The notes beneath the pieces are model-generated. The model saw only the letters and a list, made by a program, of their open reading frames with translations, had not been told where the DNA came from and did not search any database. DNA of 64,000 nt from Thiomicrorhabdus sediminis (GTDB lineage Bacteria > Pseudomonadota > Gammaproteobacteria > Thiomicrospirales > Thiomicrospiraceae): NCBI RefSeq assembly GCF_005885815.1, contig NZ_CP040602.1:387630-451629 (forward strand), written 5' to 3'. The stretch's first letter is position 1, and each line of letters begins with the position of its first letter. Made by a program: the position numbers and the translations under genes. This document shows, one piece after another, positions 23,727-31,625 of the stretch.

Positions 23727-24650
23727 CTAGAAATATTTCTTTAAGTCCATGCCTGTGTATAGCTGTGCGACCTGATCGGCATAACCGTTGAAGATCAATG
23801 TCGGTTTTCTAAAAAACGAGCCGAGTGGGCGCTCTTTTGCCTGTGACCAGCGCGGATGCGCGACATTCGGGTTTACGTTTGAATAAAAACCATACTCGGA
23901 TGGGGTCGCTGCCATCCAGCTGCTCGTTGGTTGCTTTTCAACTAAGCGTATTTGCACAATCGATTTGCTGCTTTTAAAACCATATTTCCAAGGAACGACT
24001 AAGCGAATTGGTGCGCCATTTTGATTAGGCAGTTCTTTGCCATAGATGCCGGTAGCCATCAATGTTAAGGGGTGCATGGCCTCGTCCATGCGTAGCCCTT
24101 CACGGTAAGGCCAGTCCAAAACGCGGTATTCTTGTCCGGGTAGATTTTTCGGGTCATATATACTGACAAACTCAACATATTTGGCTTTGGAGGTTGGTTC
24201 AACCTGTTTAAGTAGTTTGGCGAGAGGAAAACCAATCCAAGGTACGACCATTGACCAGCCTTCAACGCAGCGAAAACGATAGATGCGTTCCTCCTGTGTA
24301 AATTGATACAGGTCATCCATATTAAATGTCTGCGGTTTGAGGCATTCGCCAGTAACTTCAACAGTCCAGCCATCGGTCTTTAATCTATCGGCGTAACGAT
24401 ATGGGTCAGACTTGTCTGTGCCCAGTTCATAGAAGTTATTATATTTGAGTGCGTGTTCCGGGTCGGTCAGTGCAAGATTGGCGGAGTACTGATTATTGCG
24501 AGTGAATTGTAATGCCCAAACAGGAGATGAGCTGGCGAATAATCCAACAGTCAGAGCGGACTTTATCAGTTGGCGACGATTGATGTATAGCGACTCGTCC
24601 GTCACCTGGTTTTCACTAAGTTTAGTGTTTGTTAAGTGCTTAAATGGCAT
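23727..24650 (-). CDS. msrP: MsrP, molybdopterin methionine-sulfoxide reductase
   Basis: Periplasmic molybdoenzyme that reduces protein methionine sulfoxide. It has 307 residues. The twin-arginine export signal is NRRQLIKSALTVGLFASSSPVWA (Arg25-Arg26). The catalytic-domain signature RFRCVEGWSMVVPWIGFPL has the cysteine that binds molybdenum. It is divergent from cbbL across a 305-bp regulatory gap and upstream of msrQ. Confidence 0.94.
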   Translation of the reverse strand: MPFKHLTNTKLSENQVTDESLYINRRQLIKSALTVGLFASSSPVWALQFTRNNQYSANLALTDPEHALKYNNFYELGTDKSDPYRYADRLKTDGWTVEVTGECLKPQTFNMDDLYQFTQEERIYRFRCVEGWSMVVPWIGFPLAKLLKQVEPTSKAKYVEFVSIYDPKNLPGQEYRVLDWPYREGLRMDEAMHPLTLMATGIYGKELPNQNGAPIRLVVPWKYGFKSSKSIVQIRLVEKQPTSSWMAATPSEYGFYSNVNPNVAHPRWSQAKERPLGSFFRKPTLIFNGYADQVAQLYTGMDLKKYF

Positions 24651-24902: not shown

Positions 24903-24955
24903 TTATTAGGCTTTATTTTTCGTTCAACCCACTCCATAAAATGAGGAGAACATTT

Positions 24956-26371
24956 ATGGCTAGTAAAACTTTTGACGCTGGTGTACAAGACTACCAGTTG
25001 ACTTATTGGACTCCAGATTATGTTCCATTAGACACAGACCTATTGGCGTGTTTCAAAGTTATCCCACAAGAAGGTGTACCACGTGAAGAAGCGGCTGCTG
25101 CGGTAGCTGCTGAGTCTTCAACAGGTACATGGACAACAGTATGGACAGACCTATTGACAGACATGGAATTCTACAAAGGTCGTTGTTACCGAATTGAAGA
25201 CGTTCCTGGTGACAAGTCAGCATTCTACGCGTTTATCGCTTACCCACTAGACCTATTCGAAGAAGGTTCAGTAGTAAACGTACTAACATCACTTGTTGGT
25301 AACGTATTCGGCTTTAAAGCGGTACGTTCTCTTCGTCTAGAAGATATCCGTTTCCCAATGGCGTTCATCAAGACATGTATGGGACCTCCATCAGGTATCC
25401 AGGTTGAGCGTGACAAGCTAAACAAGTACGGTCGTCCAATGCTAGGTTGTACAATCAAGCCTAAGCTAGGTCTATCTGCTAAGAACTACGGTCGTGCGGT
25501 ATATGAGTGTCTACGTGGTGGTCTAGATTTAACTAAAGATGATGAAAACATCAACTCACAGCCGTTCCAGCGCTGGCGTGATCGTTTTGAGTTTGTAGCG
25601 GAAGCGGTAGATAAAGCGACAGCTGAAACAGGTGAGCGTAAAGGTCACTACCTAAACGTTACTTCTGGTACTGTTGAAGAAATGATGAAGCGTGCTGAGT
25701 TCGCCAAAGAACTAGGTCAGCCGATCATCATGCACGACTTCCTAACAGCTGGTTTTACAGCGAACACAACACTAGCAAACTGGTGTCGTGAAAACGGAAT
25801 GCTTCTACACATTCACCGTGCGATGCACGCGGTAATTGACCGTAACCCACACCACGGTATCCACTTCCGCGTACTAGCGAAGTGTCTACGTTTGTCAGGT
25901 GGTGACCACCTACATACAGGTACCGTTGTAGGTAAGCTGGAAGGTGACCGTGCGTCAACGCTAGGTTTCGTAGATCAGTTACGTGAAGCATTCGTACCAG
26001 AAGACCGTTCACGCGGTGTATTCTTCGACCAAGACTGGGGTTCAATGGCGGGTGTATTCGCCGTTGCTTCAGGTGGTATCCACGTATGGCACATGCCAGC
26101 ACTTGTAAACATCTTCGGTGATGACTCAGTTCTTCAGTTCGGTGGTGGTACACAGGGTCACCCAGGTGGTAACGCTGCGGGTGCTGCGGCTAACCGTGTT
26201 GCGCTAGAAGCGTGTGTTAAAGCACGTAACGAAGGACGTGACCTAGAGCGCGAAGGTGGGGATATCCTACGTGATGCAGCTCGTCACTCTAACGAACTAG
26301 CCGTAGCTCTAGAGACTTGGAAAGAGATCAAGTTCGAGTTCGACACAGTTGATAAATTGGACGTTCAGTAA
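24956..26371 (+). CDS. cbbL: Rubisco large subunit, form IA
   Basis: Carboxylates ribulose-1,5-bisphosphate in the Calvin cycle, here as carboxysome cargo. It has 471 residues from ATG 24956 with GAGGAGA before it; an in-frame ATG at 24941 overlaps the ribosome site and is unlikely. Catalytic Lys168 lies in GCTIKPKLG. The carbamylated Lys194 with Asp196 and Glu197 lies in LDLTKDDEN, and the loop-6 region has [13 protein letters not shown]. Codon use is strikingly rich in CTA, GTA and ACA compared with neighbouring operons. It leads the carboxysome operon, 50 bp before cbbS. Confidence 0.99.
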
Positions 26372-26421
26372 TTAGCCACGGGTTAATTACCGAATTCGAA
26401 CCGAATTAAGGAGAATATAAA

Positions 26422-26766
26422 ATGTCAATGATTCAAACAGAAGACTACCGTACAAAGTATACGCTAGAAACTTTCTCATTCCTTCCAGACCTAACAGCGG
26501 ATGAGATCTATGCGCAGATCGTATATATCATCAACCAGGGTTGGACTCCGGCTCTTGAGCACGAAGCACCAGAAAGCGCTTCAGCTCACTACTGGGGTAT
26601 GTGGAAGCTACCATTCTTCGGTATGCGTGATCCAAACGAAGTATTGGCAGAGCTAGATGCTTGTCGTGCAGCGTACCCAAATCACCTAATCCGTTTGATT
26701 GGTTACGATAACTATACACAGTGTCAAGGGCACAACTTCGTGGTTTACCGTCCAAGAGGCATGTAA
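26422..26766 (+). CDS. cbbS: Rubisco small subunit, form IA
   Basis: Caps the L8 core to give the L8S8 enzyme and contributes to the CsoS2 binding surface. It has 114 residues, containing YKTKY-like start [16 protein letters not shown], the [15 protein letters not shown] core and [22 protein letters not shown]. The start is preceded by AAGGAGAATATAAA. It lies 33 bp before csoS2. The short hairpin loop is typical of bacterial small subunits. Confidence 0.99.
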
Positions 26767-26799
26767 TCCATTTTTTCTGGAATTTAAGGAGGCTTTAGC

Positions 26800-28821
26800 A
26801 TGAGTGGAACAACTCCAACGCAAAGCGGGCGCGAAGCAGCACGAGCTCACCGTCAAGGAATGAAGCGTGGTAAAACAGCACGTACTTCATCGCCTGTGTC
26901 GGCGAAGCGTCGTCCTGAACCAGTTGCGCCAGTAGCGAGTGCCCCAGTGGCACAACCTACAGCTGCTAAGTCACCTGTAACTCGTCCAGCCGTTCGTGTT
27001 GCGACCGCGCCAGTAGAAAGCGCGTCAGCAGCCGGACGAAAAGCGGCGAAGCAGAAACGACAGCAGTTAAAATCCGGAAAAGTGTCACGAACACAAAGTT
27101 CGACCAACCCACATCCTAAGGCGAAAGCCCGTCAGGATCGTGAGCCACTAGTTGAAGTGTCAGAGCGTAAGCCAGTAGCCACAAGCACACCTACTCGTCC
27201 AACGGACAGTAAGGTTGCGGTGAAAGCGGAAGCGAAGTCATCAGAATCCAGTGGACGCAGCATGGCGCGTGCATGGCGTAAAGCCGGTGCGAAAGGAAAG
27301 GCTGGTCAAAGTGCTTATAAATCAAAAGGTACACAGTCTGGTGCTCTAGCCAAGATGGCGAATCCAGATGCGTCTACCCGTGAGATTGCGAGAAAGATTC
27401 GAGCCGAACGTTGCAGCCGTGGTAAAGCGGGATGTGCAACAGCCGAAACGGCGAGCTCAAAGAAATCTCGACAGTCGAAAGCGTCACGCACAGCACCTGA
27501 AAAGGTGGGTGAGTCGAATACGCTTAGCGGACAACGTGTTTCTGGAACGCAAGTCGGTCAAGGTCGTAAGGCCATGACGGGTGCAGAAACCGGCGCGTGC
27601 CAATTGGTCAGCGGGACCGAGTATTTAGGAACGGAAGAGTTCGCGAACAACTGCGACTCGACACCTAATGCGAAGCCTGCGAAAGTAACGCAAACTCAGA
27701 CGACTCGTGGTCAGACCATTAGTGGAAATGAGGTAGGTCGTTCGAAGAGTGTAACAGGTGATGAATCTGGTACATGTTCAGCCGTAACCGGTTCTGAATA
27801 TCTTCCTGCGGACCAAAGCGCGTTATTCTGTGGTGGACAAGCCCCGACTAAGGCGGCTTCGACTGGTTTCTCAGTAATGAGTCAGCCATCACAGGCCAAT
27901 ACAGGTTCAAAAGTAACCGGTGGCGATAGCTACAAGTCACAGTCAGTGACATTGCGTCCGAACAGCGCCCCTGAAAAGGTGGTGGCTTCGAAGACAGCGA
28001 TGGGCATGACGACAACGGGCACGCAAGTGGGTCGTTTAGAGAATGTGACCGGTAGTGAGAAAGGCGTTTGTAAGAACGTCAGCGGCACAGGTTACCAGAG
28101 CGCTGAAGAAGCACAGGAATATTGTGATAAGCCGGCGGCATCTACCGCAAATAAAGTAACGACTTCTGGTACTTCAAGAGGCCAGTCAATTACGGGTGAC
28201 CGTAGTGGTGGTTACGATAACAACATGACTGGTGCAGAAGCCGGTTCATGTAAAGCGGTTACCGGTACGTCTTATATGGGTACTGAACAGCTAGCAACTT
28301 GTTCTGCTGAACAGCAGCAAGAAGCTCAGCAACGTATGAGACAAGGTATTAACCATGCGGTATCAGGCGTTCAGCCAGGTCCAGTAGGGTTAACAGGTGC
28401 GCAGAAAGGCGCGTGTACATTAGTATCTGGTACGCATTATCAGGGAAACGACCAGACAGCAATGGTTTGTGATTCAGCGAATGCTGCGCAACCTGGTCAG
28501 TCTGACTTTCCGCAGATGATGAACAGTGCTATGCAAGCCGCTCCAATGGCAGCTCCTGTACAGGAAGCACCAGTAGAGCAGCAAGCTTCAAGAATTACCG
28601 GTGACGGTTGGGATCGCGGTAGCAAAGTGACTGGAACAGAAGGTCCTTGGGCTGCACAGCGTAACTCATCTTTGCGCGGTACTAAAGGTCAAGCTCCTAT
28701 GGGTGCTAGCCAGTATCGTCCAGCATCGATGGAAGAAGTTCCACAAAGCCCAATTACGGGTTCATCTGGTAACACAAATGTAGGCGCAAAAGTCACTCTA
28801 TCCGGTGGCGCAAGAGCATAA
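26800..28821 (+). CDS. csoS2: CsoS2, carboxysome scaffold protein (compact form)
   Basis: Disordered scaffold that joins Rubisco to the shell. It has 673 residues. Four basic N-terminal Rubisco-binding helices are visible: at about 10-25 (GREAARAHRQGMKRGK), 79-94, 152-167 and 193-209. Five M-repeats with the VTG / C / VSG-T-Y / C pattern lie at about 243-286, 303-346, 399-443, 459-502 and 514-558. A degenerate unit lies between the second and third (357-398). The C-terminal part (about 597-673) has ITGDGWDRG, VTGTEGPWA and an end TLSGGARA that anchors to shell. From memory typical CsoS2 is 750-900 residues with more M and C repeats, so this is a short version. The frame is intact; no programmed-frameshift site was recognised. 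AAGGAGG precedes the ATG. Confidence 0.95.
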   Translation: MSGTTPTQSGREAARAHRQGMKRGKTARTSSPVSAKRRPEPVAPVASAPVAQPTAAKSPVTRPAVRVATAPVESASAAGRKAAKQKRQQLKSGKVSRTQSSTNPHPKAKARQDREPLVEVSERKPVATSTPTRPTDSKVAVKAEAKSSESSGRSMARAWRKAGAKGKAGQSAYKSKGTQSGALAKMANPDASTREIARKIRAERCSRGKAGCATAETASSKKSRQSKASRTAPEKVGESNTLSGQRVSGTQVGQGRKAMTGAETGACQLVSGTEYLGTEEFANNCDSTPNAKPAKVTQTQTTRGQTISGNEVGRSKSVTGDESGTCSAVTGSEYLPADQSALFCGGQAPTKAASTGFSVMSQPSQANTGSKVTGGDSYKSQSVTLRPNSAPEKVVASKTAMGMTTTGTQVGRLENVTGSEKGVCKNVSGTGYQSAEEAQEYCDKPAASTANKVTTSGTSRGQSITGDRSGGYDNNMTGAEAGSCKAVTGTSYMGTEQLATCSAEQQQEAQQRMRQGINHAVSGVQPGPVGLTGAQKGACTLVSGTHYQGNDQTAMVCDSANAAQPGQSDFPQMMNSAMQAAPMAAPVQEAPVEQQASRITGDGWDRGSKVTGTEGPWAAQRNSSLRGTKGQAPMGASQYRPASMEEVPQSPITGSSGNTNVGAKVTLSGGARA

Positions 28822-28827
28822 AGATTA

Positions 28828-28860
28828 CACGCTCTGGTTAAACATAAACACTAGAGTGTG
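28828..28860 (+). promoter_or_regulatory. Stem-loop between csoS2 and the first csoS1
   Basis: CACGCTCT (28828-28835) pairs with AGAGTGTG (28853-28860), one G-U pair, around a 17-nt loop. No T-run follows, so it is more likely an RNA stability or processing element that boosts the csoS1 part of the message than a terminator. It lies in the 74-bp gap where csoSCA and csoS4 genes would normally be. Confidence 0.5.
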
Positions 28861-28895
28861 AACCAAATTGAGAAGAAATTCTAAGGAGAAAAGTT

Positions 28896-29183
28896 ATGAG
28901 TACTGAATACGGTATTGCTTTAGGAATGATTGAAACACGTGGTCTAGTACCAGCTATCGAAGCAGCTGATGCGATGACTAAAGCGGCAGAAGTACGTCTA
29001 GTAAGCCGTGAGTTCGTAGGTGGCGGTTACGTTACTGTAATGGTTCGTGGTGAAACTGGTGCGGTAAACGCTGCAGTTCGCGCTGGTGCTGATGCGTGTG
29101 AGCGCGTTGGTGACGGTCTTGTTGCTGCGCACATCATTGCACGTCCTCACAAAGAAGTTGAGCCAGTATTGGCTGCTAAGTAA
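28896..29183 (+). CDS. csoS1: Carboxysome shell hexamer CsoS1, copy 1
   Basis: Single-BMC-domain shell protein whose hexamers tile the facets and carry the small pore. It has 95 residues starting MSTEYGIALGMIETRGLVPAI; the pore-lining VGGGYVTVMVRG is at about 41-52. The length fits CsoS1A/C. The start is preceded by AAGGAGAAAAGTT. Residues 1-92 are identical to the next gene. It follows csoS2 directly; csoSCA, csoS4A and csoS4B are missing from their usual place between. Confidence 0.98.
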   Translation: MSTEYGIALGMIETRGLVPAIEAADAMTKAAEVRLVSREFVGGGYVTVMVRGETGAVNAAVRAGADACERVGDGLVAAHIIARPHKEVEPVLAAK

Positions 29184-29208: not shown

Positions 29209-29517
29209 ATGAGTACTGAATACGGTATTGCTTTAGGAATGATTGAAACACGTGGTCTAGTACCAGCTATCGAAGCAGCTGATGCGATGACCAAAGCGGC
29301 AGAAGTACGTCTAGTAAGCCGTGAGTTCGTAGGTGGCGGTTACGTTACTGTAATGGTTCGTGGTGAAACTGGTGCGGTAAACGCTGCAGTTCGCGCTGGT
29401 GCTGATGCGTGTGAGCGCGTTGGTGACGGTCTTGTTGCTGCGCACATCATTGCACGTCCTCACAAAGAAGTTGAGCCAGTTCTTACTGCTGGTGGTAACT
29501 CAGCGAGCCGTAGCTAA
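29209..29517 (+). CDS. csoS1: Carboxysome shell hexamer CsoS1, copy 2 with C-terminal extension
   Basis: Same BMC shell fold as copy 1 but 102 residues, ending LTAGGNSASRS in place of LAAK. A C-terminal tail of this kind is reminiscent of CsoS1B. The first about 270 nt match copy 1 except for one silent change in the Thr28 codon (ACC for ACT), so the pair is a very recent duplication or is kept alike by gene conversion. The gap to copy 1 is 25 bp and contains AAGGAGAAAGTA as ribosome site. Confidence 0.97.
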   Translation: MSTEYGIALGMIETRGLVPAIEAADAMTKAAEVRLVSREFVGGGYVTVMVRGETGAVNAAVRAGADACERVGDGLVAAHIIARPHKEVEPVLTAGGNSASRS

Positions 29518-29577
29518 TAAACGGAAGTCTGAAACGATCGCTCGTTTGAGTGATTGTCTCGGATATTAGGAGGGAGC

Positions 29578-30126
29578 ATGCAATATTCGTCAAGAATACC
29601 AGGAAATGTTATGCCAGGTGCCGGTGCACATCCTCAAGTACCTCAATATCAGAACGTTCCTGCGAACGGACAGATTTTGGGTTATTTGGGGCGTGCGTTG
29701 AGCATGGAGTTTTCCGCTGGTCAGCATTACCTCGCGCAAGCGTCCTTGTCAAAGTTCCGTAATGAAATGAGTTTCGCTGAAGGTTTTGTCACCTTGGCGA
29801 ACGAAGAGTTCCAACATGCGAATCTGATTACAGACCGTATGGTGGCACAAGGTGCTCTACCGTCAGGCAGTATTTTACGTCCTGCGGGAGTATCGAATAA
29901 TGTGATTGAAGCTTTACGTACTTGTGAAGAGCGCGAAGTCGCTTTGATCAATCTGTATGCGGAAGCGACCAATTACTGTGCCAATGTAGGGGCTCAGCAA
30001 GATCATGCTCTATTCAGCCGATTATTGGAAGAAGAGCAGGCGCAGTTGATGAGAGTCAACTCTTGGATTCAAGAGTATTATCAGACGATGAGTCAGCAGC
30101 AACAGCCTTACGGGAGCTTTGTGTGA
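29578..30126 (+). CDS. Carboxysome-operon ferritin-like (bacterioferritin-like) protein
   Basis: Four-helix ferritin-like protein of the kind found at the end of alpha-carboxysome operons; its role there is not settled (iron or redox handling has been proposed). It has 182 residues from ATG 29578, which has AGGAGGGAGC just before it; the frame extends upstream to 29554 without a ribosome site. A Pro/Gly-rich N-terminal tail (about 1-35) precedes the helices. Likely di-iron ligands are in SMEFSAGQHYL, ANEEFQHANL, CEEREVAL and LEEEQAQL. The stop overlaps the next start (GTGA). Confidence 0.9.
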   Translation: MQYSSRIPGNVMPGAGAHPQVPQYQNVPANGQILGYLGRALSMEFSAGQHYLAQASLSKFRNEMSFAEGFVTLANEEFQHANLITDRMVAQGALPSGSILRPAGVSNNVIEALRTCEEREVALINLYAEATNYCANVGAQQDHALFSRLLEEEQAQLMRVNSWIQEYYQTMSQQQQPYGSFV

Positions 30127-30386
30127 ACGATAGATGGAAACAAAAGTCGAAACCGGCTAGTTTAGAGGCCCGCTTTGAGTTTGACAGTTTCGAGATTCTT
30201 CGTGAATTTCTTGATCAGACTGCTGAAATCGCGGAGCAACTAGAACATCATCCTAATATCAGTTTTTCTAAACAACATGTGTCCATGATTATTTATGCAA
30301 AAACTGGTGAGTTAATGGATATAGATTTTGAACTGCAAAGTTCATTTGATAAGGTTTATGATTCACTTGTTACCACTACAAGTTAG
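30123..30386 (+). CDS. PCD-like Rubisco assembly factor (acRAF-type)
   Basis: Pterin-4a-carbinolamine-dehydratase fold. In alpha-carboxysome operons such proteins act as Rubisco chaperones rather than enzymes. It has 87 residues if translation starts at GTG 30123, whose last bases overlap the ferritin stop as GTGA. An open frame continues to 30063, but that part lies inside the ferritin gene. Visible PCD-like segments are ARFEFDSFEILREFLDQTAEIAEQLEHHPNI and IYAKTGELMDIDFEL. The dehydratase HH-P motif is present as EHHPNI. The His of the usual second motif (T H) is replaced by Ala-Lys, which supports a non-catalytic role. It is the last gene of the operon. Confidence 0.85.
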   Translation: MNDRWKQKSKPASLEARFEFDSFEILREFLDQTAEIAEQLEHHPNISFSKQHVSMIIYAKTGELMDIDFELQSSFDKVYDSLVTTTS

Positions 30387-30419: not shown

Positions 30420-30451
30420 AAAAACCCAAGCTTAGTCTTGGGTTTTTTTTT
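30420..30451 (+). terminator. Rho-independent terminator closing the carboxysome operon
   Basis: CCCAAG (30425-30430), 6-nt loop, CTTGGG (30437-30442), then T9. It marks the operon end, so csoS4 or csoSCA genes cannot follow on the same transcript. Confidence 0.93.
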
Positions 30452-30575: not shown

Positions 30576-31625
30576 ATGGAACAAACTACAGTCAAAATCG
30601 GTATTGTCGGTGGGACAGGTTATACCGGTGTCGAGCTTTTAAGAATTCTAGCCAATCATAATCAGGCACAAGTCGTCGCGATTACTTCACGAAGTGAGTC
30701 GGGTGTTAAGGTGGCGGATATGTACCCCAATCTGCGTGGTATCTATGACCTGGCTTTTTCCGAACCAACGGTAGAAGTGTTGCAGGCGTGTGATGTGGTG
30801 TTTTTTGCGACTCCGCACGGCGTGGCGATGAGTATGGCGCACGAATTGACGGCAGCCGGTGTTAAGGTGATCGATCTGGCCGCGGATTTCCGTATCAATG
30901 ACTTGGCCGTCTGGAGCAAATGGTATGGCCTGGAACACACTTGTGAGGATTTGATGCCACAGGTTGCCTATGGTTTGCCGGAGGTTTTCCGTGAGCAAGT
31001 CAAACAAGCGAACATCATTGCCAATCCGGGCTGTTATCCAACCAGCATTCTTTTGGCATTGAAACCGTTGATTGATCACGACCTGATTGATGTCAGTGAT
31101 ATTGTCGCCGATGGTAAATCGGGTGTTAGCGGGGCCGGTCGTGGCGCCAATGTTGCCATGTTGGGTGCTGAAATGAGTGAAAGCTTTAAGGCTTATGGTG
31201 TAGCAGGGCATCGTCATCTTCCCGAGATGCAGGATAAACTAATGCAGATGGCGGAGCAAAACATCGGGCTGACTTTCGTACCGCATTTGGTACCGATGAT
31301 TCGTGGTATGGAATCTTCCGTTTATGCCAACCTTAAAACTGATATGGGCCAAGATCAGTTGCAGACGCTGTTTGAAGAGTGCTATGCGGATGAGACTTTT
31401 GTCGATGTTATGCCAGCCGGCAGTTTACCTGAGACGCGTATGGTCAAGGGGTCCAATATGTGCCGTATGGCCGTGTATCGTCCACCGGGGAGTAATAAGG
31501 TCGTGGTGACTTCGGTGATTGATAACTTGGTTAAAGGTGCAGCGGGGCAAGCGGTTCAGAATATGAATATTCTTTTCGGTCTGCCGGAAAACAGTGGTTT
31601 GAACCAGGTCGCTTTATTACCTTAA
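30576..31625 (+). CDS. argC: N-acetyl-gamma-glutamyl-phosphate reductase
   Basis: NADPH-dependent step of arginine synthesis. It has 349 residues from ATG 30576 ([22 protein letters not shown], with ATAGGAAATTTC before it); the frame continues 12 codons upstream without family support. The dinucleotide motif is [10 protein letters not shown] at 9-18 and the catalytic Cys153 lies in NPGCYPTS. Monocistronic, between the carboxysome terminator and erpA. Confidence 0.97.

Follow-up and report, generated by a model that had tools for sequence, protein, structure and literature searches.

Here, we describe the cso operon in a window of the Thiomicrorhabdus sediminis genome (the whole stretch of 64,000 nucleotides analysed, C1:387630-451629) as what is probably a duplicated and trimmed second cso locus that would feed one carboxysome pool together with a fuller cso locus, L002, about 100 kb upstream. 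The genes that the window operon lacks are encoded in L002, and L002 in turn lacks an acRAF-like gene that the window operon carries. Moreover, the divergence between the two loci changes abruptly within csoS2, in a manner that argues for an old split followed by gene conversion.

Results

The co-occurrence of cbbL, cbbS, csoS2 and a BMC-H-type csoS1 in a single operon, based on Pfam matches and gene order, marks the window locus as an alpha-carboxysome operon (Table 1), and neither csoSCA nor csoS4A and csoS4B are part of it. From the cso context, we take cbbL to encode a form IA Rubisco, and the flanking genes are presumably msrP and argC. The original prediction had proposed that no gene lies between csoS2 and csoS1, that csoSCA, csoS4A and csoS4B are missing from the operon, and that a terminator closes it. 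All three proposals hold: the junction is gene-free, tblastn searches with CsoSCA, CsoS4A and CsoS4B of L002 gave no match around the operon, and a hairpin followed by a T-run marks the operon end. The reading frames of the operon are intact. In pattern scans, terminator-like sites were fewer than in shuffled sequences (3 versus 5.7), and promoter sites were about as frequent as expected (8 versus 7.3).

Table 1. Features of the window cso operon and its flanks (positions within the window)
Feature	Position	Strand	Evidence or remark
msrP-like gene, left flank of insert	23727..24650	-	Adjoins argC, with no cso locus between, in 11/18 relatives
Near-identical tract common to both loci	24943..27779	+	5 mismatches in 2,837 bp
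cbbL, Rubisco large subunit	24956..26371	+	PF00016/PF02788; ORF start possibly 24941
cbbS, Rubisco small subunit	26422..26766	+	PF00101
csoS2	26800..28821	+	PF12288, E 1.4e-92
Junction csoS2/csoS1, 74 bp, gene-free	28822..28895	+	Position of csoSCA, csoS4A and csoS4B in typical loci
csoS1, BMC-H shell protein	28896..29183	+	PF00936
Second csoS1	29209..29517	+	PF00936
bfr, bacterioferritin-like protein	29578..30126	+	PF00210
acRAF-like Rubisco assembly factor, pterin-4a-carbinolamine-dehydratase family	30123..30386	+	PF01329, E 1.9e-9
Intrinsic-terminator-like hairpin at operon end	30420..30451	+	11 pairs and T-run; fold z -5.02
argC, right flank of insert	30576..31625	+	Synteny with relatives

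The junction contains a stem-loop (28828-28860; 11 pairs, no T-run, -16.3 kcal/mol, z -3.06) that is present as a single copy in the genome and is followed on its 3' side by a Shine-Dalgarno-like AGGAGA motif. The csoS4B-csoS1 gaps of relatives mostly fold weakly; stronger folds are found in G033 (-13.5 kcal/mol over 113 nt) and G018 (-9.7 kcal/mol over 107 nt), and those of eight Thiomicrospira-like loci range from -21 to -34 kcal/mol over 126-164 nt. The junction stem-loop could uncouple csoS1 expression from that of csoS2 within a shared transcript, or it could be a deletion scar.

Three fates had been offered for the missing functions, i.e., that they are encoded elsewhere, replaced, or lost, and whole-genome searches support only the first. 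The genome is one contig of 2,373,486 bp (2.37 Mb; completeness 99.99). L002 has the order cbbL, cbbS, csoS2, csoSCA, csoS4A, csoS4B, three csoS1, bfr, a small ORF, HAM1, csoS1D and cbbR, in which the genes lacking family matches carry the names that we presume to apply. PF08936, the CsoSCA family, has a single genomic match (C1:315873-316217, E 1.1e-46), which lies in L002 in a stop-free open frame of 509 aa, and the only two genomic matches to PF03319 pentamers (C1:316267 and C1:316520) are csoS4A and csoS4B of the same locus. Loss from the genome is excluded because all three genes are found in L002. Loss of CO2 production is likewise rejected, given csoSCA at C1:315873. Replacement is unneeded. 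PF00484 has no match in the whole genome, which rejects a Pro_CA-type beta-carbonic anhydrase as a substitute; another pentamer is rejected because the only two pentamer genes are those of L002; and the one alpha-carbonic anhydrase gene (C1:1697845), far from the cso loci, is not required as a stand-in. At C1:955069, on the opposite strand, there is a third gene for a Rubisco large subunit; we read it as form II, and the genes that follow it as CbbQ- and CbbO-like.

The two-locus arrangement with one stripped locus is already known. T. sediminis has been brought into culture (PMC10608990), and a 2022 review, in the part considered here, describes one typical cso locus and one without csoSCA, csoS4A and csoS4B, with identical CbbL and CbbS, a CsoS2 that is identical to residue 330, and small differences at the C-terminus of CsoS1 (PMC9164163). 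In the same part, the second locus is termed a recent duplicate, and a CO2-permeable particle used at high CO2 is raised as one possibility (PMC9164163). The genome analysed here shows the traits of this "No csoSCA" T. sediminis type, i.e., a stripped second locus, identical CbbL and CbbS, and a CsoS2 that diverges at residue 330. That part of the review makes no mention of acRAF being missing from the typical locus, of gene conversion, or of an odd CsoS2 end in the typical locus.

Several lines of evidence bear on the age of the duplication. First, the 5' part of the operon is nearly the same in both loci: CbbL has 0 differences over 471 residues, CbbS has no amino-acid difference, and dS is 0 for cbbS, 0.009 for cbbL and 0.016 for csoS2 codons 1-329 (dN 0), the encoded residues being identical. 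Second, CsoS2 has its first difference at residue 330 and is divergent over residues 330-673; in contrast to the first half of the gene, codons 451-673 have a dS of 1.39 and a dN of 0.33, which indicates a long separation of the csoS2 copies under continued constraint. The window csoS2 and that of the relative G028 are separated by a dS of 1.74 (codons 1-329) and 1.69 (codons 451-673), both values being near saturation, and the csoS2 end has diverged between the loci nearly as it has between species. Third, similarity returns further downstream. In the tract 29245-30044, which covers the csoS1-bfr part, 5 of 800 positions differ, and the bfr copies are 99% identical. The first csoS1 of the window is nearest to the third csoS1 of L002 (dS 0.03 versus 0.30 to the second and 0.46 to the first), to which the second csoS1 of the window also has a dS of only 0.026. 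A patch within csoS2 (27890-28136) with 2 mismatches between the loci fits a further small conversion tract. Thus, csoS2 appears as one gene with two apparent ages and a sharp border, which we read as an older duplication after which the tracts on either side underwent conversion. A simple recent duplication does not account for two apparent ages within csoS2; in this respect, the dS contrast argues against the published term of a recent duplicate, at least as it is used in the part of the review considered (PMC9164163). No publication pairing gene conversion with carboxysomes was among the literature matches listed.

To place the two loci, we compared 50 cso loci, i.e., 48 of relatives, the window locus and L002. 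csoSCA is present in 39 of these loci, and csoS4A and csoS4B in 49. The argC neighbourhood was inspected in 18 out of the 30 relatives with an argC match; no match to cbbL, bfr or acRAF was found near argC in any of the 18, and in 11 of them the msrP-like gene lies directly beside argC with no cso locus between. Because the argC site is otherwise empty in these relatives, the window locus is an insert. L002, which like the loci of many relatives is followed by HAM1, csoS1D and cbbR, probably has the ancestral position. The window locus shares the order cbbL, cbbS, csoS2, csoS1, bfr and acRAF with the operon typical of the genus but differs from it in lacking csoSCA, csoS4A and csoS4B, as well as HAM1, csoS1D and cbbR behind. 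A simple assembly collapse, which the original prediction had also considered, is unlikely and in its plain form rejected: the flanks of the two loci differ, with unrelated DNA further upstream of cbbL, and the site is empty in the relatives examined.

CsoS2 is found in 47 of 62 genomes of the family, and two separate csoS2 places occur only in this genome and in G029 and G030 of the same genus; no other genome in the 62-genome sample has two csoS2 places of which one is stripped of csoSCA and csoS4. G029 and G030 resemble this genome in having two csoS2-bearing loci each, but all four of their loci keep csoSCA, csoS4A and csoS4B. Each CsoS2 end of G029 (L056, L057) groups with one of G030 (L058, L059; support 100/99 and 98/91), and therefore their duplication is older than their split. 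The Thiomicrospira-like loci L088-L095 belong to a single sister genus and, like the window locus, have no csoSCA match, but they differ from it in keeping csoS4A and csoS4B; Thiomicrospira loci without csoSCA are described, in the part of the review considered, as having no csoSCA elsewhere either (PMC9164163). Two other unusual arrangements were observed in the comparison set. G021, of the same genus, has a very divergent cso locus (L049) without a csoSCA or bfr match and, about 8 kb on, a partial second cluster (L151) with a csoS4B match, two csoS1 and a weak acRAF-like match. In four genomes (L055, L066, L072 and L086), cbbL is separated from cbbS by a csoS1-like gene.

The acRAF-like gene of the window, the GTG start of which overlaps the bfr stop, is a PCD-family gene behind bfr that has the same place in 40 other loci and was aligned with 10 of them. 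In 41 of the 42 bfr-bearing cso loci, including the window locus, acRAF lies within 200 bp behind bfr, and L002 is the sole exception: in the stretch L002:12829-13653 (C1:317828-318652), its bfr is followed by the small ORF and not by acRAF. The eight loci without a bfr match consist of six that are truncated where a contig or stretch ends (L056, L057, L063, L064, L068 and L082) and two divergent loci with a weak acRAF-like match of 25-26% (L049 and L076). With the window acRAF as query against the whole genome, only the gene itself was matched up to an E value of 10. The genome has one other PF01329 gene (C1:1754161), whose score of 98.7 bits against this family exceeds the 41.2 bits of the window acRAF. 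Because its surroundings differ, with unrelated neighbours, and it aligns poorly to acRAF, we read it as an ordinary dehydratase; counter to our main reading, it might perhaps stand in for acRAF. Thus, it seems that the window locus needs its sister for CsoSCA and CsoS4, and that the sister needs the window locus for the acRAF-like gene.

The two CsoS2 ends are not equally typical of the group. From residue 451, the window copy is 74% identical to CsoS2 of G028 versus 54% for the L002 copy. In a tree of CsoS2 C-termini (46 rows, leaving out G033 and G057 with cut genes and G021 and G001 with very divergent CsoS2), the window and L002 copies are sisters (support 95/87) with end branches of 0.071 for the window copy versus 0.72 for the L002 copy, which the program flags as a long branch. 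Judged from these comparisons, the unusual, fast-changing CsoS2 end is the one in the fuller, "typical" locus, and it is the "atypical" window locus that keeps the usual end. The sister pairing has modest support and involves one long branch, and import followed by conversion retains a small likelihood as an alternative.

Discussion

Altogether, these observations support a model whereby a cso locus was duplicated in this lineage into the msrP-argC site. The window copy would then have lost csoSCA, csoS4A, csoS4B and csoS1 copies; the differences in gene content are observed, and their direction is the more probable one. The fuller locus would supply CsoSCA and the CsoS4 pentamers in trans and would itself have lost acRAF, which the window locus alone would still encode. 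Gene conversion would hold the loci nearly identical in cbbL, cbbS, the front half of csoS2 and the segment from csoS1 to bfr, so that Rubisco and the CsoS2 N-terminus, which is the Rubisco-binding part of this protein, would be the same from either locus. Provided that the loci are jointly expressed, what they encode would be built into a single pool of particles with carbonic anhydrase and vertices, and the window locus would raise the dose of Rubisco, CsoS2, CsoS1 and bfr and be the sole source of acRAF, rather than forming a separate compartment lacking a CO2 source. Because the loci do not differ in Rubisco or in the CsoS2 N-terminus, we see no sequence feature that would separate two particles. 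Counter to this model, the loci may be expressed at different times, for which the unrelated upstream DNA leaves room.

In H. neapolitanus, deletion of acRAF had a large negative effect, and reconstitution in E. coli showed a growth defect without acRAF, although it was not strictly required (both from the part of PMC7714395 considered here). According to the part of a 2026 review considered here, preparations of purified alpha-carboxysomes have shown no acRAF, and its site of action may be the cytoplasm (PMC12918739); therefore, one copy could serve both loci.

It is unlikely that the window locus instead makes a distinct CO2-permeable Rubisco compartment for use at high CO2, without carbonic anhydrase or vertex caps. 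Such a particle is already raised in the part of the 2022 review considered (PMC9164163). In its favour, exactly csoSCA, csoS4A and csoS4B are absent, the different upstream DNA makes separate regulation possible, and an H. neapolitanus csoS4 knockout still makes carboxysomes that mostly look normal but are leaky (PMC2760150). However, genes for CsoSCA and CsoS4 are present in this cell, neither Rubisco nor the CsoS2 N-terminus differs from its L002 counterpart, and the CsoS2 C-terminus of the window locus is the ordinary one of the group.

A more technical explanation, i.e., a mis-join at the shared tracts such that the csoSCA/csoS4 middle part belongs to the msrP-argC locus, or polishing that over-homogenised the copies, has a low probability. 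Short reads do not span the two long stretches common to both loci (2.8 kb and about 0.9 kb), and it is slightly unexpected that the conserved CsoS2 end and acRAF are found in the inserted locus. Had the segments between the shared repeats been interchanged during assembly, csoSCA and the odd CsoS2 end would each lie in the other locus. By contrast, the genome is a highly complete single contig, and the same composition of both loci is given in the part of the published account considered, perhaps from the same assembly (PMC9164163). Even after a swap, one locus would still be without csoSCA, csoS4A and csoS4B.

A last reading of the window locus could draw on the near-identity of the loci from cbbL to mid-csoS2 and in csoS1-bfr and on the missing csoSCA, csoS4A and csoS4B, but it is very improbable, given the intact reading frames of the operon, the dS of 1.39 but dN of 0.33 in csoS2 codons 451-673, and the presence in the window of the sole acRAF found and of the conserved CsoS2 end.

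Within the favoured reading of two loci that feed one carboxysome pool, we propose a more specific arrangement only tentatively. The carbonic anhydrase, the pentamers and csoS1D are encoded in the fuller locus and acRAF in the window locus. The two operons might form an interlocked pair in which each has lost genes that the other keeps, conversion homogenises Rubisco, the Rubisco-binding half of CsoS2 and CsoS1, and the shell-side half of CsoS2 diverges, giving one organelle with two scaffold variants.

The carbonic anhydrase missing from the stripped locus is not lost from the genome, which sharpens the published puzzle. Beyond the published account, as far as the part considered here extends, our analysis adds the complementarity of the loci with respect to acRAF, the pattern of gene conversion, and the odd CsoS2 end in the fuller locus. 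Since acRAF is in turn absent from the fuller locus, the two loci are predicted to be mutually dependent. With its fixed N-terminal half and its free C-terminal half, CsoS2 would provide a natural test of Rubisco matching versus shell tuning.
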